This document shows positions 26,324 to 41,145 of a stretch of DNA of 48,317 nt, piece by piece. Below the pieces are notes generated by a model. That model worked only from the letters and a program-made list of their open reading frames with translations, searched no databases and was not told the origin of the DNA. Position 1 is the stretch's first letter. Every line of letters starts with the position of its first letter. This DNA is from Asanoa iriomotensis (lineage in GTDB: Bacteria > Actinomycetota > Actinomycetes > Mycobacteriales > Micromonosporaceae). The stretch covers positions 1 to 48,317 of the forward strand of contig NZ_BONC01000062.1 of NCBI RefSeq assembly GCF_016862515.1. Reading direction: 5' to 3'. Made by a program: the position numbers and the translations under genes.

Positions 26324-26902
26324 GTGCCCCGCGTGAGCCAGAACCAGCTCGACGCCCGCCGCCACGAGATCCTGGCGGCGGCGCGCGCCGCTTTCGCGCG
26401 CTACGGCTACGAGGGTGCCACGGTCCGCCGGCTCGAAGAGGAAACCGGGCTGTCCCGGGGCGCCATCTTCCACCATTTCCGTGACAAGGACTCGCTCTTC
26501 CTCGCCGTCGCCGAGGACGACGCCGCCGCGATGGTGGCCACGGTCGCCCGCAACGGCCTCGTCCAGGTGATGCGCGACCTGCTCGCCCAGGCCGCCTCGC
26601 CGGACACCACCGGCTGGCTCGGCAGCCAGCTCGAGGTCTCCCGGCGGCTGCGCACCGACCCGGAGTTCGCCAAGCGCTGGGCGGTGCACTCGGCCGCCAT
26701 CGCCGAGGCCACCCGCGACCGGCTCGCTCGCCAGCGGGCCGCGGGCGTGCTCCGCGAGGACGTCGACCTCGACGTGCTGGCCCAGTTCCTGGAGCTGGCG
26801 TACGACGGCCTGGTGCTGCACCTGGCGATGGGCCGCCCGGCCGGCGACCTCGGCCGGGTGCTCGACCTGGTCGAAGAAGCGGTCCGGCAGGCCAGCCGCT
26901 GA
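26324..26902 (+). CDS. acnR: TetR-family regulator, probable aconitase repressor AcnR
   Basis: 192 residues, GTG start. The N-terminal HTH region GYEGATVRRLEEETGLSRGA followed by IFHHFRDKDSLFLAVAEDDA is, from memory, nearly identical in pattern to corynebacterial AcnR, as are NGLVQVMRDLL, the LEVSRRLRTDPEFAKRW segment and the C-terminal VLDLVEEAVR. AcnR represses acn in response to citrate/metal and iron status. In corynebacteria the gene is next to acn; here it is 11.4 kb away, but a near-identical operator precedes both genes, which supports the identification. Confidence 0.8.
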   Translation: MPRVSQNQLDARRHEILAAARAAFARYGYEGATVRRLEEETGLSRGAIFHHFRDKDSLFLAVAEDDAAAMVATVARNGLVQVMRDLLAQAASPDTTGWLGSQLEVSRRLRTDPEFAKRWAVHSAAIAEATRDRLARQRAAGVLREDVDLDVLAQFLELAYDGLVLHLAMGRPAGDLGRVLDLVEEAVRQASR

Positions 26903-26909: not shown

Positions 26910-27300
26910 GGCATCGAGGCAACACACTGGGCCGCAGTCGCGGGCTTCGGGCCGAGTCGCTGCACCCTGAGCACGTCGCCTACCTCAACGCCGGGCGGGC
27001 CGGCAAGTCGACCGAGCCGCTCAGCTTCCTGGTCGCGGTGGGTGTGATCTGGGTGGGGTTCAGCCTGTTCCGGAAGCTGGACCGCACGCGGGCGGCCGAC
27101 CGGGCGGTCGCTCACCTGAAGCGGCGGCGCTGTCCGGCGCGCTGTTCGGGCTGGGCTCGCTGGTGCTGCTCGACCCGGCGTTCGCCACGGAGGTCGAGCT
27201 GACGGAGCTGGCCCGCAAACCCGACTCGAGCAGCTCGTGCGGCGGTTGCGGGGGCGGCGACTGCAGCGGGGGTGACTGCGGTGGCGGTTGCGGCGACTGA
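26910..27300 (+). pseudogene. Decayed TIGR04222-type gene with intact Cys-Gly tail
   Basis: Two frames add up to a shortened copy of the downstream paralogues. The first frame reads LHPEHVAYLNAGRA (compare LTPEQVAFLNGGAT in the next gene), then a membrane span FLVAVGVIWVGFSLFRKLDR. Near 27125 the frame shifts, and the second frame reads LSGALFGLGSLVLLDPAFAT, corresponding to GVALFGASTLFLLDPAFAAD, and ends CGGCGGGDCSGGDCGGGCGD. The central part is deleted and no start codon is evident. The tail with five Cys is intact, so decay appears recent. Confidence 0.75.
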
Positions 27301-27370: not shown

Positions 27371-27455
27371 CCACAATGGGCCAAACGGCGTCGCGTCGGG
27401 AAGTTGACCGAGGTCAGTCGGCGTGGCAGGCGGCGTCCACAATGGGCTCAACGGC
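27371..27455 (+). repeat. Direct repeat in the leader of the MNIO operon
   Basis: CCACAATGGGCCAAACGGC (27371-27389) recurs as CCACAATGGGCTCAACGGC (27437-27455), 17 of 19 bases identical with 66 bases between starts. It lies just upstream of the first intact TIGR04222-type gene and could be a regulator site or the trace of a duplicated start region. Confidence 0.5.
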
Positions 27456-27477: not shown

Positions 27478-28392
27478 ATGACACTGGCCGCGTCCGGCGA
27501 CACCTGGGGCATCTCCGGCCCCACGTTCCTCGGGATCTACGTGGCGTTGGCGATCGTCGCCATCGTCGCCACCGCGCTCGTCCGCTCGATGCTGTCCCGT
27601 GGCCCCGAGGACGGCTGGCCCAACCTGACGCCCGAGCAGGTCGCGTTCCTCAACGGCGGCGCGACGCTGGCCCGTTACACCTCGCTCGGCGGGTTGCGCC
27701 GCGGCGGTGCGATCGGCGCCAACCCCGACCGCACGCTGGTGCCGACCGGGCCCTTGCCGGTGGGCTCGACCCCGCTCGACACCGCGGTCTACAACGCCGC
27801 GGGCAAGCGGCTGCGGACCCGGGACCTCTCCCGCGACACGTGGGTGTCGAGCGCGCTCGACGACATCCGGACCGGCCTGGAGCGGGCCGGGCTGCTGATG
27901 TCGCGCGAACGGCGGCGGCTGTCCCGGCTGGCGGCGCTGCTGCTCCTGCCGGTGGTCGTGCTCGGCGGCGCGCGGATCTCCGACGGGCTCGCCAACGACA
28001 GGCCGGTCGGCTTCCTCATCCTGCTGGTCATCGTCACGGTCGTCTGGATGCTGGTCAGCCTGACCAGGGCCGCCTACCGGACCAAGGCCGGCACCCGGGC
28101 GATCACCGGTCTGCGCAAACAGCACGGCTACCTGGCGCCGGGTGAGGCGCCGAGCTACGCCACCTACGGCGCCGGTGCGACCGCGATGGGTGTCGCGCTG
28201 TTCGGCGCGAGCACGCTGTTCCTGCTCGACCCGGCGTTCGCCGCCGACGCGGAGATCAACCGGCAGGTCAGCGGCGGCTCGTCGAGTGACGGGGGCGCGG
28301 GCTACTCCGACAGCGGCAGTGGCGGCTCGTGCAGTGGTGGCAGCTCCTGCGGTGGTGGCGGCGGCTGCGGCGGTGGCGGGTGCGGCGGCTAG
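27478..28392 (+). CDS. TIGR04222-type membrane protein with Cys-Gly tail (first copy)
   Basis: 304 residues from ATG 27478, with GGGAG 8 bases upstream; an in-frame ATG at 27376 lies within a repeat. Order: N-terminal membrane span (FLGIYVALAIVAIVATALV, about 17-36), conserved LTPEQVAFLNGGATLARYTS, a soluble domain, paired spans LAALLLLPVVVLGG and FLILLVIVTVVWMLVS, the conserved YATYGAGATAMGVALFGAST, and a flexible Ser/Gly tail ending CSGGSSCGGGGGCGGGGCGG with four Cys. The tail looks like a precursor segment rather than a folded domain. It is the first gene of the operon with the MNIO oxidase, so a modified, membrane-tethered tail is plausible. Confidence 0.85.
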   Translation: MTLAASGDTWGISGPTFLGIYVALAIVAIVATALVRSMLSRGPEDGWPNLTPEQVAFLNGGATLARYTSLGGLRRGGAIGANPDRTLVPTGPLPVGSTPLDTAVYNAAGKRLRTRDLSRDTWVSSALDDIRTGLERAGLLMSRERRRLSRLAALLLLPVVVLGGARISDGLANDRPVGFLILLVIVTVVWMLVSLTRAAYRTKAGTRAITGLRKQHGYLAPGEAPSYATYGAGATAMGVALFGASTLFLLDPAFAADAEINRQVSGGSSSDGGAGYSDSGSGGSCSGGSSCGGGGGCGGGGCGG

Positions 28393-29333
28393 CGGCGCCG
28401 GTCATCGCGGCGGGCGGCGACTGGACGTTCTCCGGTCCCGAGTTCGTCGCCCTCTACGCCGTCCTGGGTGCCATCGCCGGCGGTGCCGTCGTGCTGCTGC
28501 GGCGGAAGGTACTGCACGGGACGGCCGAGGTGCGGCTCGAGAGCATCGGGCCGCTGGAGGCGGCGTACCTCAACGGTGGTGTCGCGCTGGTGATGTGCAC
28601 GTCGCTGGCCTTCCTGCGCCGGGCGAACGCGATCCGGCCCAGGCGCGACGGCCGGCTGACGACCCTCGGCGCGGTGCCCGCAGGCGCGACGCCGTTGGAC
28701 GAGGCGGTCTTCCGCGCGGCCCGCCACCGGCGGGCCGGCGACCTGGTCGACGACCCGGAGGTGCACGGCGCCCTCGTCGACCTCCTGGTCGAGCTCCGCC
28801 GCAACGGGCTGCTGTTGTCCCGCGGCCGCCGCCGTCTCGCGCGGTTCGCGGGCCTCCTACTGCTGCCCGTGCTCGTGCTCGGCGCAGTCCGGATGCGCTC
28901 GGGCATCGTCAACGAACGGCCGATCGGCTGGCTGGCGTTCATCAGCGCGCTGCTCCTCATCGGCCTGGTGGTGAGCGTGCGCCGGGTTCCGGAGTCGACC
29001 GGCGCGGCGCGCGAGGCGCTCGAGGGGCTCAAGCTCCGCCACTTCCACTTGGCGCCCGAGCACGAGCCGAGCTACGCGACCTACAGTGTGCGGGACACGG
29101 CGATGGCCGTCGCGCTGTTCGGGGCGCCGTCCCTTTACCTGTTGGACGCGCGGATCGCCGCGGACGCGGGGCTCGCGGGCATCGTGGCCGCCACGGCGAT
29201 GGGGCCGACGGGCCCGGTCGGCTGGTGGGGCGGGTCGGATGGAGGCGCAGGCGGCGGCTGCGGTGGCGGCGGCGGCTGTGGTGGCGGCGGCTGTGGTGGC
29301 GGCGGCTGTGGTGGCGGCGGAGGTGGGCAATGA
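28380..29333 (+). CDS. TIGR04222-type membrane protein with Cys-Gly tail (second copy)
   Basis: 317 residues if it starts at GTG 28380, inside the 3' end of the first copy; the earlier in-frame ATG at 28329 would only translate the other gene's tail in another frame. It repeats the layout of the first copy: SGPEFVALYAVLGAIAGGAV, LEAAYLNGGVALVMCTS, two central spans, and YATYSVRDTAMAVALFGAPS. The tail is built of CGGGG units with four Cys and ends GGGGGGQ. Its stop overlaps the MNIO start (ATGA). Two paralogous substrates in one operon suggest different partners or dosage. Confidence 0.82.
   Translation: MRRLAAPVIAAGGDWTFSGPEFVALYAVLGAIAGGAVVLLRRKVLHGTAEVRLESIGPLEAAYLNGGVALVMCTSLAFLRRANAIRPRRDGRLTTLGAVPAGATPLDEAVFRAARHRRAGDLVDDPEVHGALVDLLVELRRNGLLLSRGRRRLARFAGLLLLPVLVLGAVRMRSGIVNERPIGWLAFISALLLIGLVVSVRRVPESTGAAREALEGLKLRHFHLAPEHEPSYATYSVRDTAMAVALFGAPSLYLLDARIAADAGLAGIVAATAMGPTGPVGWWGGSDGGAGGGCGGGGGCGGGGCGGGGCGGGGGGQ
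29250..29312 (+). repeat. 15-bp tandem repeat encoding the CGGGG tail
   Basis: GGCGGCGGCTGTGGT is present three times in immediate succession (29268-29312), preceded by one variant with TGCGGT (29250-29264) after a 3-base offset. Each unit encodes Gly-Gly-Gly-Cys-Gly. Near-identical codons indicate recent slippage expansion, so tail length is likely variable between strains. Confidence 0.85.
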
Positions 29334-30145
29334 CCGGCTACGGCGTCGGGATCGGCTGGCGGCCGGAGATCGCGGGGTTCGTGGCGGAGCTGCCGGGCCT
29401 GCGGTTCGTCGAGGTGGTCGCCGAGTCGGTGCACGATCACGCGCCCGTGCCCCAGGGTCTGGCCGAGCTGCGGGACAAGGGCGTCGCGGTGGTGCCGCAC
29501 GGGGTCAAGCTCTCCCTGGGTGGAGCGGAGCCGGTCGACCCGGTGCGGGTCACCCACCTAGCCACGGTCGCGGAGCGGCTGGACGCGCCGCTGGTCAGTG
29601 AACACATCGCCTTCGTACGCGCGGGCGGGGTCGAGGCCGGGCACCTGCTGCCGCTCCCCCGCTCCCGGGAGGCGGTCGATGCCGTGGTGGCCAACGTCGC
29701 GCGTACGAAGGCCGAACTGTCCGTCCCGATCGCCCTCGAGCCGATCGCCGCGGTCTTCGACTGGCCCGACGACGAGCTGACCGAGGCGGAGTTCCTGACC
29801 GAGATCCTGGACCGGACCGAGGCGCTGCTGCTGCTCGACATCGCCAACGTGTACGCGAATGCCCGCAACCGCGGCACCGACCCGTTCGCGTTGCTGGACG
29901 CGCTGCCGCTGGAGCGGGTCGCGTACTGCCACGTGGCGGGTGGCGCCGAGGCGGCCGGGATCTACCACGACACGCACACGCACGCGGTCCCGGAGCCGGT
30001 GCTGGCGCTGGTGTCGGCGCTGTGTGCGCGGCAGCGACCGCCGGCGCTGCTGCTGGAGCGCGACGGGTCCTACCCGGCGGCGGAGACGCTGCGGGCCGAG
30101 CTCGACGCGATCGCCGCCGCCTCGGGCTATCCGGCGATCACGTGA
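29330..30145 (+). CDS. DUF692/MNIO multinuclear iron oxidase
   Basis: 271 residues of the TIM-barrel family that includes MbnB, TglH and BufB, which oxidatively modify Cys or other residues in ribosomal peptides. The opening GYGVGIGWRPEI is diagnostic. Candidate iron ligands in conserved places are His57 (VVPHGVKLSLGG), Glu91-His92 (SEHIAF), Glu137 (LEPIAAVFDW), Asp170 and Asn173 (LDIANVYAN), His201 (CHVAGG), His213, Asp214 and His216 (YHDTHTHAV) and Glu243 (LLERDG). The start overlaps the preceding stop (ATGA) and the stop overlaps the next start (GTGA), so the modification enzyme is made together with its presumed substrates and partner. Confidence 0.93.
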   Translation: MTGYGVGIGWRPEIAGFVAELPGLRFVEVVAESVHDHAPVPQGLAELRDKGVAVVPHGVKLSLGGAEPVDPVRVTHLATVAERLDAPLVSEHIAFVRAGGVEAGHLLPLPRSREAVDAVVANVARTKAELSVPIALEPIAAVFDWPDDELTEAEFLTEILDRTEALLLLDIANVYANARNRGTDPFALLDALPLERVAYCHVAGGAEAAGIYHDTHTHAVPEPVLALVSALCARQRPPALLLERDGSYPAAETLRAELDAIAAASGYPAIT

Positions 30146-30573
30146 CCGGCGATCTCGCGGCGCGCCAGGCTGCCCTGGTTGCCACGCTCACGTCGGGCGC
30201 GCCCGTACCCCCTGGATTTGATCCACGGCTGGTGGGTGTGGCCCGGCAGGCGCTGCTCCGCAAGCGGGCCGGGGAGGTCGCGCGGACCTGGCCGATGCTC
30301 TCGGCGTCGTTCGGGGAGAGCTGGCGGGAGACGTTCGCGGCCTGGGCGGCGCAGCGGCCGACCAACGGCTCGCTGCGGGACGGCTGGGATCTGGCGCGGT
30401 CGTCTCCGCTGTCCGGCGCGGCCGCGGCGGAGCTGGCGGGACGGGAGGCGGCGTTCCGCTACGACGGCCACGGTGCCCCCGTCCCCCGCCGCCGGCCGCT
30501 GTCCGGGCGGGTCCGCCGGATCTCGCTCTGGGAGAGTGGACGGCTGTGGACGCGCTTTCGGTCGAAGGGCTGA
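30142..30573 (+). CDS. Small MNIO partner protein (SCO6045-like)
   Basis: 143 residues, GTG overlapping the MNIO stop. It reads LAARQAALVATLTSGAPVPP, then VGVARQALLRKRAGEVARTW and a helical segment to residue about 85, followed by a basic, Pro/Arg-rich end. The first half resembles what is named SCO6045-like C-terminal domain in actinobacterial annotation (from memory). By analogy with MbnC/TglI-type partners that present the peptide to the oxidase, it probably binds the substrate or the enzyme. Its 3' end overlaps the ABC ATPase start by 28 bases. Confidence 0.7.
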   Translation: MTGDLAARQAALVATLTSGAPVPPGFDPRLVGVARQALLRKRAGEVARTWPMLSASFGESWRETFAAWAAQRPTNGSLRDGWDLARSSPLSGAAAAELAGREAAFRYDGHGAPVPRRRPLSGRVRRISLWESGRLWTRFRSKG

Positions 30574-30911
30574 CCCGCCGGTTCGGCAACCTGGTGGTGC
30601 TCGACGGTGTCAGCTTCACGGTGGAGCCGGGCCAGGTCGGTGCCGTGCTGGGTGCCAACGGCTCCGGCAAGACGACCCTGCTGCGCTGCGTGGTCGGCGC
30701 CGAACGGCCGGACGAGGGCGTGGTCACGGTGGGCGGGCGCCGGATCTACGAGACGGATGCGTGGGCCCGCTCGATCATGGCGGCCGCGCTCGACGACATC
30801 GACTTCTTCCCCGACCTCTCGTGTCAAGCAGAGCTACACCTTTGTGATGCAGGCCACAACGTCTTGACCTCCAGTGGTGCACTCGGTAACCGCGTCCGCG
30901 TGGATAGGTAG
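30546..30911 (+). pseudogene. ABC ATPase, 5' part, interrupted by the integrated element
   Basis: As it stands the frame encodes 121 residues: 90 native ones followed by about 31 from the element before a stop. The native part has the A-loop and Walker A (GANGSGKT, residues 36-43) and runs to DDIDFFPD, where chromosome and element join at 30816-30817. The remaining ATPase (signature, Walker B, H-loop) is at 41939-42284. Joining them across the CT crossover gives an uninterrupted 205-residue ATPase reading FFPDLSVAEHLALLAYAHG. The truncated product cannot bind ATP productively. Confidence 0.92.
30793..30840 (+). other. attL of the integrated element
   Basis: The left half (30793-30815) belongs to the ABC ATPase gene; the predicted crossover dinucleotide is CT at 30816-30817; the right half (30818-30840) is element DNA ending in GCAGAGCTACACC. 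This arm is the inverted partner of the arm at the other end of the element (see attR). The dinucleotide is placed by symmetry, not by experiment. Confidence 0.8.
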
Positions 30912-31331
30912 CAGGCTGCCCGCCGTGCTGGCCGCTGCCAGCCTCGCAGAGCCCCAGGGTATCTGAGGTCAGGGTGGCGGGTGTGGCCCGTGAGCGTGGC
31001 CCCGACAGAGCGCTTCGCGGATGGGGCACCCTGGCAGCTCCCGTCACGGCTCGCGCACTGCGGGTGATCGCATGGGTATGCAGCCCGACGCATGCTCACG
31101 CCTGTCCATCGTGTCCGGTTCTGCCCCAGGGGGTGGGGGTATGACCTGCTCGGCGGCTAGGTAAGGAGACCGGGAGGTATATGCCCCCGGGGGTTGCGCA
31201 GGTTCTAGACTGGCGAAACGGGCGCAAATCGTTCGCATATTATGCAGTCTGACCCGGAATTCGCTGGCGGCCCCAGCCCATGTGCTGGGACTACACCCGA
31301 GACACGCACCGAGGCCGCCAGCACTAGCTGA
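30841..31331. other. Element left-end non-coding region with an RNA-like hairpin
   Basis: About 490 bases with no convincing gene. The best structure is at 31263-31322: GCTGGCGGCC pairs perfectly with GGCCGCCAGC around a 40-base interior that holds its own CCAGC/GCTGG hairpin (31273-31277 with 31084+200, that is 31284-31288). It lies directly beyond the stop of the small membrane gene at 31332, so it may terminate the leftward operon before attL. A short AT-rich palindrome, GCATATTATGC, at about 31234-31244 could be an operator or an origin part. Confidence 0.4.
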
Positions 31332-31535
31332 TCAGTAGCCCACGCGCTGGTCGAGCCCGAGGTAGGTCAAGCCGAAGATGACGATCAGCGGCTGACTCTC
31401 GGGAATGAAGTACGCGAGGGCAGTGACGCCAGCAGACGCGGCGCCAACGACGAGCCCGCGCACGGTCAGCGTGGGCTTCTGCGGGGTTTGGCTCACCGGG
31501 CCGGGGGCTCCAATGAACGGGCCAGTGACAAGCAT
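31332..31535 (-). CDS. Small membrane protein of the element (holin-like size)
   Basis: 67 residues, ATG preceded by AAGGA at a spacing of 7. After a Pro/Gln-rich start, two hydrophobic stretches follow: LVVGAASAGVTALAYFI and PLIVIFGLTYLGL, ending DQRVGY. Size and topology resemble small phage holins, but no lysin is encoded, so that role is only a possibility. Last gene of the leftward block. Confidence 0.6.
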   Translation of the reverse strand: MLVTGPFIGAPGPVSQTPQKPTLTVRGLVVGAASAGVTALAYFIPESQPLIVIFGLTYLGLDQRVGY

Positions 31536-31622
31536 AGGTATCCTTAAAGGACAATTGCAGAGTCACCCTGGCCAGGTCGGTCCACTGTAGCACGCCCGAT
31601 ATGACGAACGCGCGAGGCTAGG

Positions 31623-31781
31623 TCACCGGGCAGGAACGCGCTTGAATGCCTGTCGCGGGTAGGTTTCGCCGCAGGCACCGCCACACACCGAGGTTGCCAC
31701 CGCGTCACCGGCAGTCGCAGCCACCGGCTCAAACTCGGTCGGCGGGCAATCCGGTTTCGGGCACTTCCAGAGCTGAGCCAT
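31623..31781 (-). CDS. Small Cys-rich protein of the element
   Basis: 52 residues: MAQLWKCPKPDCPPTEFEPV … VCGGACGETYPRQAFKRVPA. Two Cys pairs (C-x4-C and C-x3-C, about 22 residues apart) look like a zinc ribbon. The frame overlaps the 3' end of the next gene upstream by 53 bases. No strong ribosome binding site, so it would rely on coupling. Confidence 0.5.
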   Translation of the reverse strand: MAQLWKCPKPDCPPTEFEPVAATAGDAVATSVCGGACGETYPRQAFKRVPAR

Positions 31782-31986
31782 GGTCGCAGACTACACATTG
31801 GATCGTGGGGCCAGCCGGATCGACGTTAACGCCGTTCATGACCAGCAACTCGGCGACCTCGATGCGGTCGCGGCAGGGCCAGAGCCGTATGCAGCCCATG
31901 CAGCGGTGCCGGTCCTCGGGATCGCGGCTGTGCTCGCGGTAGATCCGAGTCCATTCCTCGATCTGCTTGGGGCTGACCGTGCTCAC
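31729..31986 (-). CDS. Small Cys-rich protein of the element
   Basis: 85 residues from a GTG that overlaps the upstream stop (GTGA). The centre RHRCMGCIRLWPCRDRIEVA, with C-x2-C-x5-C, recurs in many actinobacterial and phage small proteins of unknown role; a second Cys pair (QCVVCDHG) lies near the C-terminus. Probably zinc-binding. Confidence 0.65.
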   Translation of the reverse strand: MSTVSPKQIEEWTRIYREHSRDPEDRHRCMGCIRLWPCRDRIEVAELLVMNGVNVDPAGPTIQCVVCDHGSALEVPETGLPADRV

Positions 31987-32204
31987 CGATGCCTCCCGGC
32001 GATCCCCTTGGGTCGGCAGTCCGCCGTGCTTGAGTGCAGCTCGTGGGCGTCGGCGGAGTCCATCAACTGACCGACGATCCGAAGCGCAGCGGCGTTGTGC
32101 TCCACATTGGCAGCGCCGTTTCCCCGCTCCGCAGCCCTGCCGGCCTCGAACGAGTGGTAAGCGAGGTCCAGGAGGCTATGCAGGAGGGTCGTTGTGTCGG
32201 CCAT
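31983..32204 (-). CDS. Small helical protein of the element
   Basis: 73 residues starting MADTTTLLHSLLDLAYHSFE. Its ATG overlaps the preceding stop (TGATG) and its stop overlaps the following GTG. Mostly helical, no known motif. Part of the leftward operon. Confidence 0.55.
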   Translation of the reverse strand: MADTTTLLHSLLDLAYHSFEAGRAAERGNGAANVEHNAAALRIVGQLMDSADAHELHSSTADCRPKGIAGRHR

Positions 32205-32392
32205 CAGTGCAACCGGCCGTTGTCGAGGAGCGTCCGGATCGCCCAGCGGAGCCGTGAGCACACGAGGACTGCCGCGTCATCGAACGGCGGGCATGCTGTG
32301 CAGGGTCCGGGAACGCCCGGGCTCAGCGGCTCCATGTGCTGCCCGACGAACCGCCGAGCGGCCCAGATCATGACTCCGTCGTCCATCGACAC
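32204..32392 (-). CDS. Small Cys-containing protein of the element
   Basis: 62 residues from GTG 32392, chosen because GGAGG lies 10 bases upstream; ATG 32386 is an alternative. Contains PGPCTACPPFDDAAVLVCSR, similar in style to the Cys motif of the 85-residue neighbour. First gene of the leftward block and divergent from the ATPase gene at 32523. Confidence 0.55.
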   Translation of the reverse strand: MSMDDGVMIWAARRFVGQHMEPLSPGVPGPCTACPPFDDAAVLVCSRLRWAIRTLLDNGRLH

Positions 32393-32522
32393 GCCGAAAC
32401 CCCCTCCGTCCGCGGCAAAGAGAGACGGAGGGGAGGAGCGATCCCCGGCTAATCGGCTATCAAGCATCCCCTGTTGGCGCGGCCGAAGGCCGCAGCTAGC
32501 CCGCTAACCGAAGGAAACCCCG

Positions 32523-33443
32523 TTGATCACCGTTCGCTCACTGGAGGACATCGCCGAAACCATGGAAGGTCAACCGCTGGCATTGGTCGACGGCTTGGTC
32601 GACTTCGCAGCCACCACCATCATCGGTCCCGCTAACGCTGGCAAGTCCATGTTGGTGTCCTCGCTAGCTTCAGCGCTAGCCAGCGGCGAACCGACCTGGC
32701 TTGACCGTCCCATCTTCAACCCCTCGCGCCGTCGCGTGGTCATCTTCACCACCGATCCCCGCGAGGATCGCCGGTATGCGGCTCGGCGAGGGGATGCAGG
32801 TCCCATCTTCGCTGCGCCGCTGTTCGGTGACTGGAGTTGGAGCGCCGTGCGTGACGTGGTGACTGAATACCGCTTCGACGTCGCCATCTTCGACAACGCG
32901 CTAGGGCTCGTCGGCAGCAGGGGCGGAGACATGAACAAGCCCGCTGACGTGCGGTCGCTGGCGACGGACCGCCTGGACGAGCTGGCGCACCTGGACGTCG
33001 TGCCGGTCCTGATGTCCCACACATCGAAGCCCGGCCCTGGCGGCATCGGAGCCAAGACGGCAACCGGATCGCTGGCCTGGACAGCATGGGCTCGTTCGAC
33101 GCTGCGACTGGAGAAGCTCGGGAGCGGAACCCACCGGCTCAACATCGAATCCCGCGATTTCGGCGACTCCACCATCAACCTCTCGCTTGCCGTCGATAAG
33201 CGCGGCACGCCGAGCTGGACCGTTGACGGCGTGGTCGAGCGCAAGGCCAAGCAGCGCGCCCAAGAGACGCACGAGCGGCATCGCGAAGCCGCCAACTACC
33301 TGATTGCCGCCGGACTGGCCAAGGCGACCGCGAGCGAGCAGGCCAAGGCGCTGGCCACCAAGTTCGACGGCACGGCCGACTCGTGGCGAACCAACAAGCT
33401 CGGTCGCGGCAAGCCGGTTCGCCTCCTGCTGGACGCGGCGTAA
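32523..33443 (+). CDS. RepA-like AAA ATPase/helicase of the element
   Basis: 306 residues from TTG 32523 with GAAGGA upstream. RecA/AAA_25-type core: Walker A IIGPANAGKS (residues 33-42), Walker B-like FDVAIFDNALGLVG, a sensor segment VPVLMSHTSKPG and a later GSLAWTAWARSTLRLEK. This family includes hexameric helicases of plasmid and phage replication (RSF1010 RepA). It is the likely replication or DNA-processing factor of the element; no primase or initiator was recognised beside it. Confidence 0.8.
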   Translation: MITVRSLEDIAETMEGQPLALVDGLVDFAATTIIGPANAGKSMLVSSLASALASGEPTWLDRPIFNPSRRRVVIFTTDPREDRRYAARRGDAGPIFAAPLFGDWSWSAVRDVVTEYRFDVAIFDNALGLVGSRGGDMNKPADVRSLATDRLDELAHLDVVPVLMSHTSKPGPGGIGAKTATGSLAWTAWARSTLRLEKLGSGTHRLNIESRDFGDSTINLSLAVDKRGTPSWTVDGVVERKAKQRAQETHERHREAANYLIAAGLAKATASEQAKALATKFDGTADSWRTNKLGRGKPVRLLLDAA

Positions 33444-33479
33444 CCGCTTTTCGACCCTCCATCCCGAAAGGACAAGTCG

Positions 33480-33721
33480 TGATCACGCTTTACCACTCTG
33501 GCGGCCTCGAATACCTCGATGTCCACGCCGTTTCCCTCCTGACTGGCGTCACCGCCGAGTCGCTTCGCAACCGACGTGCCAGGCGATCGGAACAAGTCGT
33601 TGGCATGGTCTCCGAGGAAATCTTCGGCCGCGTCGTCTACCGGCTGAGCCGCGTGGCCCGTCACCTTGGCATCACGGAGGAGGAACTGCGCGAGCGCATC
33701 CGGACCGGAGCGACGACATGA
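33480..33721 (+). CDS. Small HTH-like protein, candidate excisionase (RDF)
   Basis: 80 residues from GTG 33480 (AAAGGA just upstream). YLDVHAVSLLTGVTAESLRN followed by RIRTG-type basic ends, and VYRLSRVARHLGITEEELRE, suggest a winged-helix or MerR-like DNA-binding fold. Small basic DNA-binding proteins of this sort often direct excision by serine integrases, so it is a reasonable RDF candidate; this is inference. The stop overlaps the next start (ATGA). Confidence 0.5.
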
Positions 33722-34554
33722 CAAAGCCCGTTCCGGTCGAGATAGACCAACGCTTCGGCGCTCTCGTGGTGCTAGCCCTACGGCCCGGCCCGAAGCAGCC
33801 GAACGGGAAGGCCAGCGGTCGGATAGCCCTGGTGCGCTGTGATGCCTGCGGTCAGGAGTCAACCGCGCCGGCCCGCAAATTGGTCAAGGGCGAGCACTCC
33901 ACATGCGGGAAGTGCTCAGGCAGGGCCAACCGGCATCGCTCGGGCATCCCCGGCTACGTCGGCGCCCATCACGCGGTCGAGCGCGCCAAGGGCAAGGCAA
34001 GCGAACATCACTGCACCGTGTGCCTCGGCCAGGCCACCGAGTGGGCGCTGGATATCGCGACGCCGCACGAGCTGTACGCGGAGCCGTCAGGCCAGAACGC
34101 GGGCTTGGCCTACAGCACCAACCCCGATGCGTATGTGTCGATCTGTTCAGCCTGCCATCGACGCGTCGACCACTCGGTACCGCGCTCGGTGCGCGCCACC
34201 ATCCGCGAGTTGCTCACAGAAGACAGCCGACACACGAGAGGACCGGCCTCGATGACCACTCCCGAGCCCCGTCCGGCCCTTCCGGACGTCGTCACCACGT
34301 TCGACGCCTACGAGTCCGAAGCCGAGGCGCGCTGGATCGCCGGCATCTGCGTGTGGTGCGGGCAGCCCGGCGTCGAAGGCAGCTACTCAGCTCGGTTCTG
34401 CGCCGTCGACTGCGGTCACGAAAGTCACCGCGGACTGCCCCAGCCGCCAGAGTCGTTCACCCGCTCGCGTTGCGCTTGGGCTGCTCAGCGCCTCCGCCAG
34501 CGGCTCCAGCGGGCGGCCCGAAGCAGCGCCGCCGACCACACCCTGACTGTCTGA
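33718..34554 (+). CDS. HNH-type zinc protein of the element
   Basis: 278 residues. Two zinc pairs, CDAC (41-44) and CGKC (63-66), form a phage-like ribbon preceded by QRFGALVVLALRP. The HNH-like core is YVGAHHAVERAKGKASEHHC … TVC … ATEWALD … DAYVSICSACHRRVDH (residues 80-152). A further Cys-rich tail from residue 179 (CVWCGQPG, RFCAVDCGH) may be a separate protein, since ATG 34252 has GAGAGG upstream. Phage HNH proteins nick DNA near packaging sites; here function is unproven. Confidence 0.7.
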   Translation: MTKPVPVEIDQRFGALVVLALRPGPKQPNGKASGRIALVRCDACGQESTAPARKLVKGEHSTCGKCSGRANRHRSGIPGYVGAHHAVERAKGKASEHHCTVCLGQATEWALDIATPHELYAEPSGQNAGLAYSTNPDAYVSICSACHRRVDHSVPRSVRATIRELLTEDSRHTRGPASMTTPEPRPALPDVVTTFDAYESEAEARWIAGICVWCGQPGVEGSYSARFCAVDCGHESHRGLPQPPESFTRSRCAWAAQRLRQRLQRAARSSAADHTLTV

Positions 34555-34628
34555 GCGCCGAGACAGCCCCCCAGCCACCCGACCCGCCACGTGGCGGTCA
34601 GGGAATTACAACGAAGGAAGGAACCAGC

Positions 34629-34895
34629 TTGTCCGAAGTAGACGAGCACGAGTCCCCGAAAAGGCGGTTCGACCAAGGCCCAGCCGCCCGTGCCGAACGG
34701 CAGGAGCGCATGGAAGCGGTGAAGACCGCGCGCGTGGTCCTGGCGGGCTGGCAACGGCGCCAGTTCAAGGCCGTTGAACGGGTCCGCGAGGCTACGCGGG
34801 AAGCAGACCGTATCGACCGGCGCACCGCCGAGGCTGAGCGCGCTCTGGCCCTGCTGGAGCGGTCTGGCGGGCTGCCTGTCGCGGAAGCCGCATGA
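34629..34895 (+). CDS. Small coiled-coil protein of the element
   Basis: 88 residues, TTG start with AAGGAAGG seven bases upstream. Highly charged helix throughout (AARAERQERMEAVKTARVVL … REATREADRIDRRTAEAERA). The stop overlaps the next ATG. Role unknown. Confidence 0.6.
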   Translation: MSEVDEHESPKRRFDQGPAARAERQERMEAVKTARVVLAGWQRRQFKAVERVREATREADRIDRRTAEAERALALLERSGGLPVAEAA

Positions 34896-35284
34896 CCATC
34901 CTCGCGCCAATCGTGGCCGACTCGCTCGGCCGCTGGCTCCGCATCCCGGCGTACGTCGTGCCGGGCAAGGCGATGCCGACCGACGGTCCGATGTCCATCT
35001 ACGTCGCGTCGCTGTACCGGACCGACAAGGAGGGCACGACCAACGCGGGCAGGCCGTACGTGCAAGCCATGCTTTCCATCGGCTGGCTCGGGTTCGGCGT
35101 CGCGCCTGACTTCACCGGGGAGTGGACGGGTGCGGGCGAAGCGGTGCGCCGGCTGTACGCACCGGACGGCGTCTTGCTGTACCCGAACCCCATCGGCGGC
35201 CAGCCGAGGCGAAACGGCGACCTACTGACCGTCAAGGTGCTATTTCGCGCCGTCCAGGCGACGCAACGGGAGCGTGCGGCATGA
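34892..35284 (+). CDS. Uncharacterised element protein, 130 aa
   Basis: Soluble beta-rich protein (MTILAPIVADSLGRWLRIPA … VLLYPNPIGGQPRRNGDLLT). ATGA overlaps on both sides place it in the rightward operon. No family recognised. Confidence 0.6.
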   Translation: MTILAPIVADSLGRWLRIPAYVVPGKAMPTDGPMSIYVASLYRTDKEGTTNAGRPYVQAMLSIGWLGFGVAPDFTGEWTGAGEAVRRLYAPDGVLLYPNPIGGQPRRNGDLLTVKVLFRAVQATQRERAA

Positions 35285-36162
35285 CCCGACGACAGGCCAC
35301 CAACATTCGAGCCACCGAAACCCAGGAGAGCGACCGCATGACCACCCGCAGGCCGACCAACAAGACCACCGCCACCCCGACCGCCGAGGCGCCGACCGAC
35401 ACCATTGTCGTTGCCCATTTGCCAGACCAGGCCGCGAAGGAGGCGACCAAGGCAGCGCTGAACGCTGCCCGGGAAGCCGCCGCACGTGCCACGGAGGCGC
35501 TGGAGGCCGCGAGCGACGAGTCGGACGGATACGACGACGAGGGCGAGCCTCTGCCCCAGCCTCGCTTCGCCGAGGATGACGACCTGAACGAGTTCCTGCT
35601 CAACGGGCGCAACGAAATGAGGCTGGCCCGGCTGCGGTCCGCTGCCGTGGCCGCCAGCCGTGCTGTTGATCGGGCCGAGAAGGAGTATTTCGCAGCGTCG
35701 GGCTCGGTGAACCCCATCGGCCACCGCTTCGCGGAGCTTGTCGCGGGGGTGCTGAGCCCACGCGTCGAGCGGGCGGCCCGCCTTGCCGGGATCGTCCTCG
35801 GCCGCATCACTGTCGAGTCGATCCCGCTGGACCGTGGCCGGACACCGTCCCAGGATTCCCGGTACGGCGACACGTTCGGCCGGGCGCGGATCACCGTCGA
35901 GTCTCGCCACCTGCCGGCGCTGGTACCGCACGGCTTCATCCGTGAGGCCCTCGCAGACGTTGGCGCCAAGTCGCCGGACGGCGTTAGCACGTCGAAGTTT
36001 GACGGCGGCCCAACCGGCTACGAGTACGAGTTCGAAGGGACCATCGGAGATCCGGTCATCGTGGCCAAGGCCGAGGCCGAACGCCGGGAGCAGGAGCACG
36101 AAGCAGCCTTGGCGTCCTACGCCGTGATCAACTGGTCCAATCGGACTTCGGAGGTGTTCTGA
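35281..36162 (+). CDS. Uncharacterised element protein with Ala-rich helical N-terminus
   Basis: 293 residues if started at ATG 35281 (overlapping the previous stop) or 274 from ATG 35338, which has AGGAGAG 8 bases upstream; both are plausible. After a Thr/Pro-rich tail come long Ala/Glu helices, then a compact domain beginning VNPIGHRFAELVAGVLSPRV and ending VINWSNRTSEVF. No family recognised. Confidence 0.6.
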   Translation: MTRRQATNIRATETQESDRMTTRRPTNKTTATPTAEAPTDTIVVAHLPDQAAKEATKAALNAAREAAARATEALEAASDESDGYDDEGEPLPQPRFAEDDDLNEFLLNGRNEMRLARLRSAAVAASRAVDRAEKEYFAASGSVNPIGHRFAELVAGVLSPRVERAARLAGIVLGRITVESIPLDRGRTPSQDSRYGDTFGRARITVESRHLPALVPHGFIREALADVGAKSPDGVSTSKFDGGPTGYEYEFEGTIGDPVIVAKAEAERREQEHEAALASYAVINWSNRTSEVF

Positions 36163-36164
36163 CC

Positions 36165-36392
36165 GTGGCCGACTTTGACCCCGTCAAGGCCGCGCGGCTA
36201 CTCCGCGAGACTGGCACGCTGCACGCGACAGATTTCCAGTCCGCCGACATCCCGGAGCTTGGCCCGGAGGACGAGCTGCCCGTGCAGCCGGCCAGAATCA
36301 GGGGTGGCCTCGATCCGCACGAGCCGCTGCCTGACAGCCTCGATGTCGCCGAGCTAGCCCAACAGCTCCGCGATGGGCTGATCTATCGGTGA
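36165..36392 (+). CDS. Small acidic element protein, 75 aa
   Basis: GTG start two bases after the previous stop. Acidic and probably partly unfolded (SADIPELGPEDELPVQPARI). The stop overlaps the next GTG. Role unknown. Confidence 0.5.
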   Translation: MADFDPVKAARLLRETGTLHATDFQSADIPELGPEDELPVQPARIRGGLDPHEPLPDSLDVAELAQQLRDGLIYR

Positions 36393-36742
36393 GCGACGGG
36401 GACGGGGCCGGCGTTCAGCCCGCCGGCCCTCGGTCCCGCCGAGGTAGACCACGGACGCAACCTCCGGAGTGCACCGAGGAAGGCTGCAAGCGGCCTCCGA
36501 GGTCGCATGGGCTATGCCGGGCACACGTCCACCGGCTGTACCGCTATGCAGACCCGTCGATCCGCAAGAGGGGCAGCGATACGCCGACCCGATGCCGATA
36601 TTGCGGTCTACCCACGGAGCGCTCCCGCCAGGCATGGCCTGTCGCTCACGCGGAGTGCCATCGCGCCGGCAGGGCTCGGCGTGGGCCGCTCTGGCGCGCA
36701 TATCAGCGGCTGTTGCGCCAGTCGCGAGCGCTGGACCGCTAG
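36389..36742 (+). CDS. Cys-rich zinc protein of the element
   Basis: 117 residues. CTEEGCKRPPRSHGLCRAHV followed by HRLYRYADP is a motif I associate with small actinophage zinc proteins (C-x4-C…G-L-C-x2-H). A second set, CRYCGLPTERS…HAECHRAGRARRG, follows. Last gene before a terminator hairpin; converges on the integrase. Confidence 0.6.
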   Translation: MSDGDGAGVQPAGPRSRRGRPRTQPPECTEEGCKRPPRSHGLCRAHVHRLYRYADPSIRKRGSDTPTRCRYCGLPTERSRQAWPVAHAECHRAGRARRGPLWRAYQRLLRQSRALDR

Positions 36743-36749
36743 ACAGACG

Positions 36750-36778
36750 GCCCGCACTCCCATTGCCGGGGTGCGGGC
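36750..36778. terminator. Terminator between element operon and integrase
   Basis: GCCCGCAC (36750-36757) pairs perfectly with GTGCGGGC (36771-36778), 13-base loop, 7 bases after the stop of the Cys-rich gene and facing the integrase gene end. Confidence 0.75.
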
Positions 36779-36902
36779 TCTGTCGTTACGAGGACTGCCA
36801 GGGTATCCAGGAGTACCCCTAGGGCCAGAAGGTCGCTCAGATTTGCTCTCAACGGGCCGGCGGGGCATCTCGCGTTGGCCACCGAATCGTACGTCTGCGG
36901 GT

Positions 36903-38423
36903 TCAGGCGTCCTCGTCGTACTCAACACCCGATCCCGTGAACGGAGCGCCAAGCGGTACCCGCCTGACGTGCATGAAGCGCGTCGCGGCATTGGGTCGCT
37001 CCCCCACGTAGAAACGGAGTCCTGAGGCGAGCAGGAAATCTCGGCGCGCCGTCGGATTCGCCGACGCCACGATGCTCGGCCACACCTGCCAGAAATGGTC
37101 ACCGGTCGGCACCTCGCGCCACTCGTCGGCGCGCTGCGGCAGTGCCGCCAGCTCATCGCGCCTGGTGACCAGTGAGCCCATGCGGGTCCGGTATTCGGCC
37201 GCGTCCCGCTCGCCTCGGAACAGCCCGGCGTCGCGGTCGTCCCGTAGGTCCCTAATCGCTTGCTCAACGCGCTCCAGCTCAGCCGTGTGGTCCTCGCCTT
37301 TGACGAAATCACGTCGAACGATCGGAGTGTCGCCCAGTTCCTCCATCATGATTGTGTTGATCGCCTGGTCAATCACGACGGCTTGGGCTGATGGGTTCCC
37401 GCAGAAGTTTTTGCCTGCGCGGTTCACCGAGCTGCGGCAGCGGTACCGGGCCGACTTCGCATCCGTCGGGCGCACCGGGTACCACGGCGCCTCGCACACG
37501 TTGCAGAACAGCACGCCGCCCAGCGGAGAGACCTGCCGTGTTCGCCTAGGTGTCGCCTTCAGCGCGTCGAGCGCCGTCTGTAGTTCGGACCACTCCCCTT
37601 GGGTGTAGATGGCGGGCGCCCGCATCACCGGCAGCCCGTCGGCGCCCCGGATGACCGTGCCGTCCTTCTTCACGCTCTCGCCGAGCGTCGCCCGCGAGCG
37701 GAGCATCTTGTGCAGCGACTCGGAACGCCACCGGGCGCCCTTCGCCGCCTTGCCGGTCCGCACGTTGGCGTGATCCTGGGGACTCAGCGTGCCCGACTCG
37801 TTCAGCCCCTGGCATATCGAATTGACCGACTTTCCCGCGATGACGTCTCGCCTGATCTCGTGCAGCAGTTCGACTCGCTCGGCATCGTGGACCAGGCGCC
37901 AGCCGTCGACCACCTTCACGGGCATGTATCCGTCCGGCACCGTCCCCCCGTGGAATCTGCCCTCCCGGGTGGCCAGGCGCATTGAGTCCTGCACTCGGTC
38001 ACGGATGATGTCGCGTTCCCACTCGGCCACTACGCCGAGCAACCCGGCCATCAGGCGCCCTGTGTGCGTGCTGGTGTCGATCCCGTCTTGGAAGGCAATC
38101 ACGATCTTGTCGTGCTCGCGTGCCCAGTCGAGAAGGGCAACCAGGTTGCTGAGCGAGCGGCTCAGCCGATCGAGCTTTACGGCGGCAATCACGTCGTATT
38201 CGCCGGCCCGCTCGTCCGTCAGCCACGGCCCGAACTGCGGCCGGTCGAACGGGAGCACGGCGCCACTCACGTCTACGTCTGCGGCCACATGCACGAGGGT
38301 GGCGTCACGGCTCGCGGCGTACGCGTGCAGGTGCTCGGTCTGCCTGGTGATGCTGGTGCTCTCGTCGGTCTCGCGGGACAGCCGGGCCACGCCGAGAATC
38401 CGAAGCGTCTTCTTGCTGGTCAT
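36903..38423 (-). CDS. int: Large serine recombinase (integrase)
   Basis: 506 residues from ATG 38423; the frame continues 29 codons upstream without a better start. The catalytic domain has GVARLSRETD (Arg14, nucleophile Ser16), AAVKLDRLSRS and EWERDIIRDR in the usual order; the recombinase domain follows (GTVPDGYMPVK … LRSRATLGE). The zinc ribbon uses Cys307, Cys310, Cys329 and Cys341, and a charged coiled coil starts near residue 375. It is full length and shows no damage, so excision may still be possible. Unusually, it lies near the middle of the element rather than next to an att site. Confidence 0.95.
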   Translation of the reverse strand: MTSKKTLRILGVARLSRETDESTSITRQTEHLHAYAASRDATLVHVAADVDVSGAVLPFDRPQFGPWLTDERAGEYDVIAAVKLDRLSRSLSNLVALLDWAREHDKIVIAFQDGIDTSTHTGRLMAGLLGVVAEWERDIIRDRVQDSMRLATREGRFHGGTVPDGYMPVKVVDGWRLVHDAERVELLHEIRRDVIAGKSVNSICQGLNESGTLSPQDHANVRTGKAAKGARWRSESLHKMLRSRATLGESVKKDGTVIRGADGLPVMRAPAIYTQGEWSELQTALDALKATPRRTRQVSPLGGVLFCNVCEAPWYPVRPTDAKSARYRCRSSVNRAGKNFCGNPSAQAVVIDQAINTIMMEELGDTPIVRRDFVKGEDHTAELERVEQAIRDLRDDRDAGLFRGERDAAEYRTRMGSLVTRRDELAALPQRADEWREVPTGDHFWQVWPSIVASANPTARRDFLLASGLRFYVGERPNAATRFMHVRRVPLGAPFTGSGVEYDEDA

Positions 38424-38591
38424 GATGGCTCGCCATCCTATCGGGGTCCCTCGGATACGGGTCGGTCCTGCAAGTCCGCGGTACGTCTGATTGACGGGCG
38501 AACGGGGCATGCGTGCCTGTCCAGGCCGCTTCTGCGTGCGGGCGCGAAGGAGGCGGAGCCCAACCCGGACCCCGCCCCGCGTCTCGTGGGT

Positions 38592-39641
38592 CTAGGACTG
38601 GTTGGTTCCGACCAGTTCCAACGGCACCGTCACCGTGAAGGCGTTCCACTCACCCGAGGTGCCGAGGTCGGCACCGGCCGGGATGGTCAGCTTCAGCGGT
38701 AGCACGCGCGTCACGTTGGCCCCGTCCAGAACGTCACCGGCCTTGACCGTGTTGTACTGCTCTCCACCGGTCACGCCGTTGAACAGGTTCGCCTTCGCTG
38801 GGGCCGATGGGTCGAGCGCCACCGAGACCACGCTTACGGCTCCCGCGTTGACCGTAGGCGTACCGACCTCCACCTTGGCGACGTTGGCCGGGTTCGTCTC
38901 GGACTGCAAGCCAACGTTGATCCGGCACTCACCCCCAGGCATGGCCCGGATGAGCTTGACTGCGAAGGAGCCCCGGTCCGCGATCCTGACTGCCGCTACG
39001 CACCCACCGTTATCGGGGATGCGGACCGGCTGACCCGAGTCGAGGTCGCCGGGGTCGATGTCCAGCTCAGCCGCCAACGCGTTGTTCTGCGTCGTGGTTC
39101 CGAGGTACGTGCCGTCAACGGCCCACCGCTGAGTCACCGGCACCCACCCCCAGCCGCCATCGGCCCCGACGCTGGCCCCTTTCACGCTGCCCGAGATCGT
39201 CTTGTTGAACGCGATCACAGCGGCGAACGCGATTGCTGGGATCAACACGAACAGGATGGGCAAGGCGAACGGGATGCCGAGGATCTTCCGACGCCACCAC
39301 GGCTTGCGCTCACGCACCGGCTGATTCACCGAGTGCCGCGCCCGGTAGACGGTGCCCTTCCGTCGCTGCGGTTGCACTGGCTGGAACGTGGCCATCTGCG
39401 GCGGGAGAGGAATCATCGTGGTGACCTCGGCGTGGTCGTCATCTCCGTCCGCGTCGAGCCAGTCAGCGGCAGCGACGTTTGGGTACACCCCGGCGTCAGC
39501 ATCGGCGGCAATCTGGACGGCCGAGACCGGGATGCCTAGGCGCGTGGCCACCTTTTCGCGGTCGGTCATCGTGTCCCGGTCGGGCCCGCCTCCCGTGGTG
39601 TAGCCGAACCTCTCGTTCGACGCCTGGTTAGTCTTGTGCAC
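38592..39641 (-). CDS. Membrane-anchored surface protein of the element
   Basis: 349 residues, GTG start with AAGGAGG immediately upstream. A cytoplasmic N-terminus of about 115 residues with an LGIPVSAVQIAAD segment precedes one membrane span (LGIPFALPILFVLIPAIAFA, 121-146) and a long beta-rich outside domain with a few Cys (CVAAVRIAD, GGECRIN) ending in VTVPLELVGTNQS. No sortase motif. Could act at the cell surface, for example in exclusion or cell contact; this is speculation. Confidence 0.65.
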   Translation of the reverse strand: MHKTNQASNERFGYTTGGGPDRDTMTDREKVATRLGIPVSAVQIAADADAGVYPNVAAADWLDADGDDDHAEVTTMIPLPPQMATFQPVQPQRRKGTVYRARHSVNQPVRERKPWWRRKILGIPFALPILFVLIPAIAFAAVIAFNKTISGSVKGASVGADGGWGWVPVTQRWAVDGTYLGTTTQNNALAAELDIDPGDLDSGQPVRIPDNGGCVAAVRIADRGSFAVKLIRAMPGGECRINVGLQSETNPANVAKVEVGTPTVNAGAVSVVSVALDPSAPAKANLFNGVTGGEQYNTVKAGDVLDGANVTRVLPLKLTIPAGADLGTSGEWNAFTVTVPLELVGTNQS

Positions 39642-39727
39642 AACCCCTCCTTGAGGGTTCGAGGGACCACGGCACCGCCTTGTCAGGGGTCTCGGTGGTC
39701 GTGGTAGCGGGTCGGCCCGCTGGGCGC

Positions 39728-39751
39728 GTGCACGGCGTCTTGTCCGTGCAC
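39728..39751. terminator. Hairpin between element genes
   Basis: GTGCACGG (39728-39735) pairs perfectly with CCGTGCAC (39744-39751). It lies between the 39767 gene end and the leader of the surface-protein gene. Confidence 0.55.
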
Positions 39752-39766
39752 CACCCGGCCGGTCGG

Positions 39767-39952
39767 CTATGCGGCTGAGCGCGTCTCGTAGTTGGCCTGC
39801 GCTTCCGCGTCATTCGCTGCCAGCGTCAGCAGTCGGGCCGCTCCGATTACCGCCTGGTGCTGGCTCACGGTCACGTGCTGCGCGTCAACCCGCTGGGCGA
39901 CGCGGATGAGGCGCTGTTCTGCCTCGGTCAGCCGGCAGTACGCGCACCACAC
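39767..39952 (-). CDS. Small zinc-finger-like protein of the element, start uncertain
   Basis: 61 residues from GTG 39952: MWCAYCRLTEAEQRLIRVAQ … followed by a helical region. The same frame stays open and sensible upstream (EQLARTTEPCPPRQVWCAYC), making a second Cys pair, but has no start codon. The only ATG with a ribosome binding site (ATG 40023, ACGGAGG) is in another frame. Either the gene is broken by a frameshift between 39952 and 40023, or translation starts at the weak GTG. Confidence 0.4.
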   Translation of the reverse strand: MWCAYCRLTEAEQRLIRVAQRVDAQHVTVSQHQAVIGAARLLTLAANDAEAQANYETRSAA

Positions 39953-40117
39953 CTGACGTGGTGGACATGGCTCGGTCGTGCGGGCGAGTTGTTCGACAGG
40001 GCGGCTGAGGGCTGGCGTCGCATGGAGATACCTCCGTGGATTGCTGGTTGGGTGTGCCTGGCCTGGCCACCTCGGCTACCGCCGGACCGGGATCCGGCGA
40101 CAACCGGGGAAGTCAGC

Positions 40118-40804: not shown

Positions 40805-40887
40805 GGTCTCGTCCTCTCGTGAGGGTCTGCGGGTCCGTCTGGTCCCACTCCACGGCGCCCGGTCGGGCCGGTCACCATGGGGCAGGG

Positions 40888-41145
40888 TCAGCGCGCGGCG
40901 GTCGTCTCGCGAGCGAAGGTCACGGCCGGGTGCGCGGTCCCGTGGCCCTCATCGCCGCACACCTCGCACCGGTGCCAGCCGTAGCCGTCGCAGTTGCTCT
41001 CCTCGCCGCACGCGAGAACCACGTCGAACCCCGCCCAGTACCGGATGCCGACAGCGAACCCGTCCGCGTGGTCGGGGTCGCCGTCCCCGTTGGCCAGGTA
41101 GCAAGCGCAGCCGTGACACACGATCAGCTCGTGCACGATCTCCAT
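40888..41145 (-). CDS. Small zinc protein of the element
   Basis: 85 residues from ATG 41145 (GGGAGAG upstream). Cys/His-rich: IVCHGCACYLANGDGD, ACGEESNCDGYGWHRCEVCG. Two probable zinc sites. A repeated hairpin element lies directly upstream. Confidence 0.65.
   Translation of the reverse strand: MEIVHELIVCHGCACYLANGDGDPDHADGFAVGIRYWAGFDVVLACGEESNCDGYGWHRCEVCGDEGHGTAHPAVTFARETTAAR

Follow-up and report, generated by a model that had tools for sequence, protein, structure and literature searches.

A conserved TIGR04222-MNIO-partner operon in Asanoa iriomotensis, with Cys-Gly tails as candidate substrates

The DNA analysed here, referred to as the window, is the whole of contig C62 (48,317 bases) from the 8.57 Mb genome of Asanoa iriomotensis. 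It carries an operon encoding two TIGR04222-type membrane proteins with tails rich in Cys and Gly, an MNIO enzyme of the MbnB/TglH/ChrH family, and a small partner protein. Judging from sequence comparisons, the locus is a genuine, well-conserved member of the TIGR04222-MNIO-partner kind, which has already been proposed in print. The tail is probably the substrate of the MNIO and its partner, with chemistry of the 5-thiooxazole class.

The first membrane protein, TIGR04222-A (304 aa), is encoded at 27478-28392 on the + strand with an ATG at 27478, and the second, TIGR04222-B (317 aa), at 28380-29333 on the + strand with a GTG start. They score 148.8 and 113.8 bits respectively against NCBIfam TIGR04222, for which the cut-off is 43 bits; protein B was scanned from 28383. 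The MNIO (271 aa; 29330-30145, + strand) matches PF05114 at 268.3 bits, against a cut-off of 25, and is followed by the partner (143 aa; 30142-30573, + strand, GTG start), which is similar to the PME-type 2 partners. As read in the sequence, genes A and B overlap by 13 nt, because the in-frame GTG of TIGR04222-B lies at 28380, while the B/MNIO and MNIO/partner overlaps are 4 nt each. The Cys-Gly tail of A, SCSGGSSCGGGGGCGGGGCGG (28327-28389, + strand), ends in CGG and is the proposed modified segment. That of B is CGGGGGCGGGGCGGGGCGGGGGGQ (29259-29330, + strand). An earlier reading made from the DNA letters (the sequence-only reading) had described two adjoining TIGR04222 proteins with four Cys in each tail, and a small partner gene overlapping that of the MNIO, and both descriptions are confirmed.

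The operon was compared with MNIO loci from close relatives, using the best 80 of at least 495 relatives and up to 8 kb on each side. A TIGR04222 gene is found in 74 of the 80, within 6 kb in 71 and about 6.5 kb upstream in three Rhodococcus loci. In the six loci without one, the MNIO match begins no more than 64 bases from a contig end. All 73 tails that were scored hold at least two Cys, although one of them (L181) comes from reading through a frameshift and should be discounted, and 66 of the 73 end in exactly CGG. In 61 of the 74 loci a TetR homolog is encoded on the TIGR04222 strand, no more than 1 kb from the start of that gene; its counterpart in the window is at 26324-26902 (+ strand; PF00440, 57.8 bits). 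Of 69 loci (68 of the 74, plus the window), 50 have the sequence CACAATG in the 250 bp preceding TIGR04222. The window has two copies (27372-27444, + strand), starting at 27372 and 27438, 66 bases apart, which places them at -106 and -40 of TIGR04222-A. The longer sequence CCACAATG is present in 33 of the 69 upstream stretches, compared to none of 69 random stretches. CACAATG is regarded as a putative promoter element. A same-strand SDR homolog is present in 62 loci, and starts within 600 bases past the partner in 45 of these (the median of the 62 being 106). The conserved unit consists of TetR, the CACAATG motif, TIGR04222, MNIO and partner.

A wider survey covered 394 genomes of the class. 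Among the matches listed, TIGR04222 was matched in 135 of them and MNIO in 94, and the 131 TIGR04222 matches of at least 43 bits (among 150 listed) were scored. A Cys-Gly tail was defined as at least two Cys flanked by G, S or A within the last 60 residues, and a protein was called near if it was within 6 kb of an MNIO. There were 79 near proteins, every one on the same strand as the MNIO. Cys-Gly tails were found in 58 of these 79, in 8 of the 26 proteins whose MNIO is elsewhere in the genome, and in 2 of the 26 from genomes with no MNIO match (Fisher p = 2.3e-9 for near versus none, with relatedness ignored). Split by gene order, the near proteins have such tails in 43 of 45 cases where TIGR04222 comes first, as in the window, and in 15 of 34 where the MNIO comes first. 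Counted by locus, a Cys-Gly tail is present in 39 of the 40 with TIGR04222 first. When the comparison is limited to Gly-rich tails (last 40 residues at least 60% Gly/Ser/Asp), which equalises such content, Cys-Gly motifs occur in 57 of 57 near an MNIO, 7 of 12 with an MNIO elsewhere, and 1 of 8 without an MNIO match. That one (G079) has an MNIO whose start is truncated by the contig end. The other Cys-tailed protein without an MNIO (G183) has a 311-residue open frame beyond a partial match, not a Gly tail. Within family f19 alone, Cys-Gly tails are present in 15 of 15 proteins near an MNIO and in none of 17 that are not near. The sequence-only reading was to be given up if Cys-Gly tails occurred mostly without an MNIO. 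This was not seen: 66 of the 68 are in genomes with an MNIO match, or 67 if G079 is counted.

The 43 Cys-Gly tails in TIGR04222-first order contain 201 Cys; the two tails of this order that were omitted from the count contain none. The residue following the Cys is G in 181 cases, S in 13 and A in 6, with one Cys at the C-terminus, and the residue before it is mostly G (133) or S (60). The commonest of the 158 spacings are C-x5-C (42) and C-x4-C (38). The last Cys (C302 of TIGR04222-A) is invariant across 39 aligned proteins with identities down to 30%. In published work, FonBC favours a small residue after the Cys, and among the repeat variants made at this position only Ala worked (available text of PMC12668002). 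The consistently small residues after the tail Cys would fit this measured preference of a 5-thiooxazole-forming MNIO. That the tails are the likely modified segment, as the sequence-only reading put it, is supported, because Cys-Gly tails track MNIOs and the residue after every counted Cys (the C-terminal one apart) is small.

The candidate iron ligands of the window MNIO are H57, H92, E137, D170, N173, H201, D214, H216 and E243. They were placed by alignments, H57 by the alignment to 3bww only, from the ligands of TglH, which are His71, His107, Glu151, Asp184, Asn187, His216, Asp229, His231 and Glu258 (PMC10880893). The set can be called complete because all nine TglH positions are matched; the sequence-only reading was right about the identity of the enzyme, but its description of the ligands as almost complete was too cautious. 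All nine positions, together with D245, are unchanged throughout an alignment of 65 MNIOs (taken from matches longer than 700 bases) and in a second MNIO from the same genome, on contig C30. Placed through the ERD motif in the alignment to 3bww, of which the FonB sequence itself was not part, D245 appears to occupy the position of Asp249, the catalytic base of FonB; Phe250 of FonB is a selectivity site around the Cys (PMC12668002). At the place of Phe250, directly after D245, 30 of 36 MNIOs of TIGR04222-first order have Gly, Ala or Thr, and all 29 of MNIO-first order have an acidic residue (Asp or Glu). A small residue here would suit a Cys flanked by Gly. Against the NCBIfam BufB equivalog, the window MNIO scores 184.8 bits, under the cut-off of 310 bits. 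The C30 enzyme (L001, 25252-26037) is closer to BufB, at 238.2 bits against the same cut-off, and the gene after it encodes a 290-aa protein with a weak likeness to ApyI (E 2.2e-5).

The partner is conserved. A homolog is present in all 80 close-relative loci. In the class survey, a single-sequence search recovered it from 60 of the 70 MNIO-containing loci and a profile search from 68 of them; among fetched loci that lack an MNIO it was recovered from none. An AlphaFold2 model of the partner (pLDDT 90.3) has five helices followed by a strand pair, and may represent a helical domain of the DUF2063 type followed by a reduced second domain. A Pfam scan of the window partner gave no match at E 0.01, and one of 38 members matches PF09836 (DUF2063) at E 0.027, which is suggestive only. 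When the model was compared with known structures, neither NGO1945 (3dee) nor TglI (8hi7) was among the 42 matches listed, none of which reached E 0.001 or below. The partner profile had no matches to sequences in the PDB.

The predicted model of TIGR04222-A (pLDDT 85.7) has long helices at residues 14-40, 143-172 and 178-196, with a folded domain between the first two; the tail, from residue 266, is at pLDDT below 50. There are no K or R ahead of the first helix, and 5.7 K+R versus 1.5 D+E beyond the third, a charge pattern which suggests that the folded domain is cytoplasmic. The tail would be outside the cell only if segment 230-252 spans the membrane. This segment is weakly hydrophobic, with a median of 1.42 compared to 2.05-2.48 for the other segments, and display of the tail on the outside is accordingly uncertain. 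Foldseek gave no significant matches to the TIGR04222 model. The best match of the TIGR04222 profile to PDB sequences was MukB (E 0.029), with antibody chains and microcin B17 also matched, and these matches were not used as evidence.

The scheme that we favour is as follows. Both TIGR04222 membrane proteins would be substrates. The partner would dock the C-terminal part of the membrane protein on the MNIO, whose iron cluster, with O2, would carry out a four-electron oxidation of each Gly/Ser-Cys-Gly site. The product would most likely be 5-thiooxazole, each Cys becoming lighter by 4 Da. Modification of the tail would probably take place in the cytoplasm, ahead of membrane insertion of the last hydrophobic segment, by which the tail would be brought to the outside. 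The outcome would be a row of ligands for soft metals, Cu(I) being the likeliest, anchored in the membrane, and not a small free peptide. As to function, we suggest tentatively, and with rather more doubt than conviction, that the protein is a membrane-anchored captophorin of the cell envelope, in which several 5-thiooxazoles lie in a Gly-rich spacer, often with a C-terminal Cys-Gly-Gly, and which, being fixed in place, buffers or senses copper. Both metal binding and topology are less certain than the role of the tail as substrate. Should the tail be modified, it would follow that MNIO enzymes work on integral membrane proteins and that post-translational heterocycle chemistry can have such a protein, and not a small peptide, as its target; TIGR04222, a large family of Actinomycetota, would acquire a function. 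A single operon is enough to test this, given its conserved partner and last Cys, the small residue at the selectivity site and the specific mass shift expected.

Several results weigh against modification of the tail, or against parts of this scheme. One is the effect of shared ancestry. A tree was made for 121 of the 131 proteins (leaving out G079, G183 and domains shorter than 150 residues), on which there are at least 10 changes in the Cys trait and 11-13 in MNIO adjacency. It gives 5-6 supported independent pairs, of which about 2.2-2.4 are concordant and 0-0.3 opposed (p 0.5). If the trait is taken as an MNIO anywhere in the genome, the values are 0.5 concordant and 0 opposed (p 1). With shared ancestry taken out, the link between tail and MNIO does not reach significance, and there are too few pairs to decide. 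The co-conservation of tail Cys with MNIO, which the sequence-only reading offered as a check, is seen as co-occurrence (58 of 79 versus 2 of 26) but is not significant in phylogenetically independent pairs.

There are also counter-examples among individual loci. In the 29 MNIO-first loci (L181 excluded), all in family f21 and genus g28, the fetched stretch holds only a Cys-less TIGR04222 in 14, only Cys-tailed ones in 10 and one of each kind in 5. A search of the 14 for another Cys-rich gene gave no firm candidate, being swamped by wrong-frame reads. One locus (G181) has the gene order of the window and an adjacent MNIO, and its tail has no Cys. Eight Cys-tailed proteins are away from the MNIO of their own genome, so that any modification would have to be in trans. 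An exact CGG terminus is found in only 21 of the 43 Cys-Gly tails in TIGR04222-first order. The best Foldseek match of the partner model, MbnC (7dz9_C), is not significant (E 1.5). The rule of a small residue after the Cys is a preference only, because FonBC once modified a Cys-Tyr motif (PMC12668002). Finally, no copper gene was found beside the MNIO, the relatives having been searched for homologs of window genes only. The eight Cys-tailed proteins away from their MNIO are at L057, L063, L093, L131 and L140 (genus g72), L042, L109 and L143. In L052, L088 and L094, where TIGR04222 is Cys-less, there is a Cys-rich zinc-ribbon-like frame (ECVLCR..PTE..CPVCEWQEAQR) about 1-2 kb 5' of the MNIO.

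These observations leave room for other explanations. The MNIO may act on the tail with different chemistry, perhaps only at the C-terminal Cys-Gly-Gly (for example by carbon excision), leaving the inner Cys as free thiols. This would account for the invariant last Cys, the CGG ending of 66 of the 73 close-relative tails, and the variable number and spacing of the inner Cys, and the related pair TglHI does work on a C-terminal Cys (PMC10880893). We nevertheless consider it unlikely. The ending is found in only about half of the class sample, as just described, and among 15 MNIO-first tails in just one, which is truncated by a contig end. The inner Cys are retained in nearly all tails, and D245 is conserved at the position of the FonB base, while the corresponding printed stretch of TglH is EYQ. 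Somewhat less probable still is that the tail is unmodified, and binds metal or forms disulfides as it stands, with the MNIO modifying something else, nearby or elsewhere. The 14 MNIO-first loci that keep an MNIO without a Cys tail fit such an explanation, as does the phmmer match to the partner in 27 of the 29, and so do the Cys-tailed proteins far from the MNIO, 8 of the 26 in genomes of that kind. It is harder to reconcile with the Gly-rich tails that lack an MNIO match, since 7 of the 8 are free of Cys-Gly motifs and the eighth is G079 with its truncated MNIO, or with the window itself, where the genes overlap and there is therefore no room for another gene between them.

The same 7 of 8 equally Gly-rich tails also speak against the idea that the tails arose by expansion of low-complexity repeats in a GC-rich genome and that their Cys have no function. 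The DNA of tail B is indeed a near-perfect repeat, and in other loci of the same genus, L246 excepted, the printed part of the second tail contains fewer Cys. The Gly codons of tail A are, however, mixed, and the last Cys has been kept in proteins as little as 30% identical, which makes this a very improbable explanation. Modification of the tail by the MNIO and partner, with 5-thiooxazole-class chemistry, remains the reading that we prefer.

The proposal itself is not new. Antoine et al. (July 2025; PMC12452194) proposed a subset of TIGR04222 proteins with C-proximal Cys-rich segments as MNIO substrates. The sequence-only reading named no characterised case of such an architecture; the idea itself was already in print, and the surprise is limited accordingly. 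A full-text literature search for TIGR04222 gave only this paper among the matches listed, and the available part of it reports no experiment on these proteins. According to that part, there are more than 3,500 TIGR04222 proteins, a subset of which have Cys tails, and TIGR04222 makes up 40% of more than 1,000 Cys-containing proteins without signal peptides that are encoded before MNIO genes. Not every TIGR04222 protein has Cys or an MNIO, and short PME-type 2 partners are named, with Micromonospora examples included (PMC12452194). The window has the same features as these published clusters, namely a TIGR04222 gene next to an MNIO gene, a Cys-rich Gly/Ser segment near the C-terminus, and a partner without a DUF2063 signature. 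There are three differences. In the published text a partner is assigned to at least 10% of TIGR04222 clusters, with many seemingly lacking one, compared to 80 of 80 and 68 of 70 here. Large periplasmic domains are stated there, whereas the charges found here suggest that the large domain is cytoplasmic. Lastly, the Cys tails were here scored against their MNIO neighbours.

The closest characterised systems are the captophorins and bufferins (FonABC, MmrABC), in which an MNIO and a partner act on repeated Cys that precede small residues. They share with the window the Cys-Gly dyads, and the C-x4-C spacing seen in EGKCG repeats (available text of PMC12668002 and PMC12538549). Their substrates are, however, peptides, most with Sec signal peptides (PMC12452194), and their partner is a DUF2063 PME-type 1 protein, in contrast to the short partner without a DUF2063 match found here. 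On size, the membrane proteins of 304 and 317 aa do not fit the Sec-signal-peptide precursors of the bufferin type. TglHI, which makes 3-thiaglutamate, is of the same enzyme family and has the same ligand set, a partner with a helical domain, and a C-terminal Cys as target. It differs in that TglI has an RRE domain and TglA is a small scaffold to which a Cys is added (PMC10880893), and in that the ERD Asp is absent from TglH as printed in the alignment, where EYQ stands instead. The methanobactin system, MbnABC, also oxidises Cys using an MNIO and a partner, and the best, non-significant, structural match to the window partner comes from it. MbnA is a small excreted peptide, unlike the TIGR04222 proteins. 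Microcin B17 has a Gly-rich core with scattered Cys and Ser, and is made by thiazole/oxazole synthetase chemistry and not by an MNIO; its match to the tail profile (6grh, E 1.5) is weak and not significant.

Downstream of the partner, the sequence-only reading had an ABC ATPase, a permease and a zinc-ribbon gene completing the overlapping operon. This does not hold, as the ATPase is split by a mobile element and the module was seen next to an MNIO in Asanoa alone. The ATPase starts at 30546, inside the end of the partner gene, and its 5' part (30546-30821, + strand) is homologous to intact relatives as far as 30820-30821. Homology resumes at 41929-41949, in the 3' part (41935-42284, + strand). 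The gene is unbroken in five loci of the same genus (L173, L245, L246, L247 and L249). The inserted element, of about 11.1 kb (30808-41934), has TCCCCG at both ends and lies outside the MNIO system. It encodes a serine recombinase (integrase; 36903-38510, - strand) matching PF00239, PF07508 and PF13408, and phrog_95 integrase at 4.7e-97, together with an AAA ATPase (32523-33443) and an HNH-like open reading frame (33304-34554). A near-match search of a phage collection with the element gave no match. The ATPase is followed by a DUF6297 permease (42281-43690, + strand; PF19814, 203.7 bits) and a small zinc-ribbon-like protein (43687-43977, + strand) with CDQC and CTAC motifs, for which Pfam and NCBIfam scans gave no match.

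Permease and zinc ribbon are found together in only 1 of the 80 close-relative MNIO loci, that of Asanoa ishikariensis (L173), whose MNIO is 90% identical to that of the window. They adjoin the MNIO in all five same-genus loci fetched (L245-L249), which were chosen for holding the permease, and of which L248 is probably the same genome as L173. In G095 and G196, from the same family, permease homologs are distant from the MNIO. As a general component of the system the ABC ATPase/permease/zinc-ribbon module was rejected, because it is beside the MNIO only in Asanoa. It probably entered between the partner and the SDR gene, since the latter closely follows the partner in relatives.

The rest of the genome has one further MNIO, the C30 enzyme described above, and two further TIGR04222 matches, on contigs C8 and C1, whose tails contain no Cys. 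Within the window, a decayed third TIGR04222 copy with the Cys-Gly tail CGGCGGGDCSGGDCGGGCGD was read by eye between the TetR gene and the CACAATG motifs (26945-27300, + strand; left boundary approximate), and has a stop in the reading tried. At the same position in L247, a locus of the same genus, the third copy is intact.

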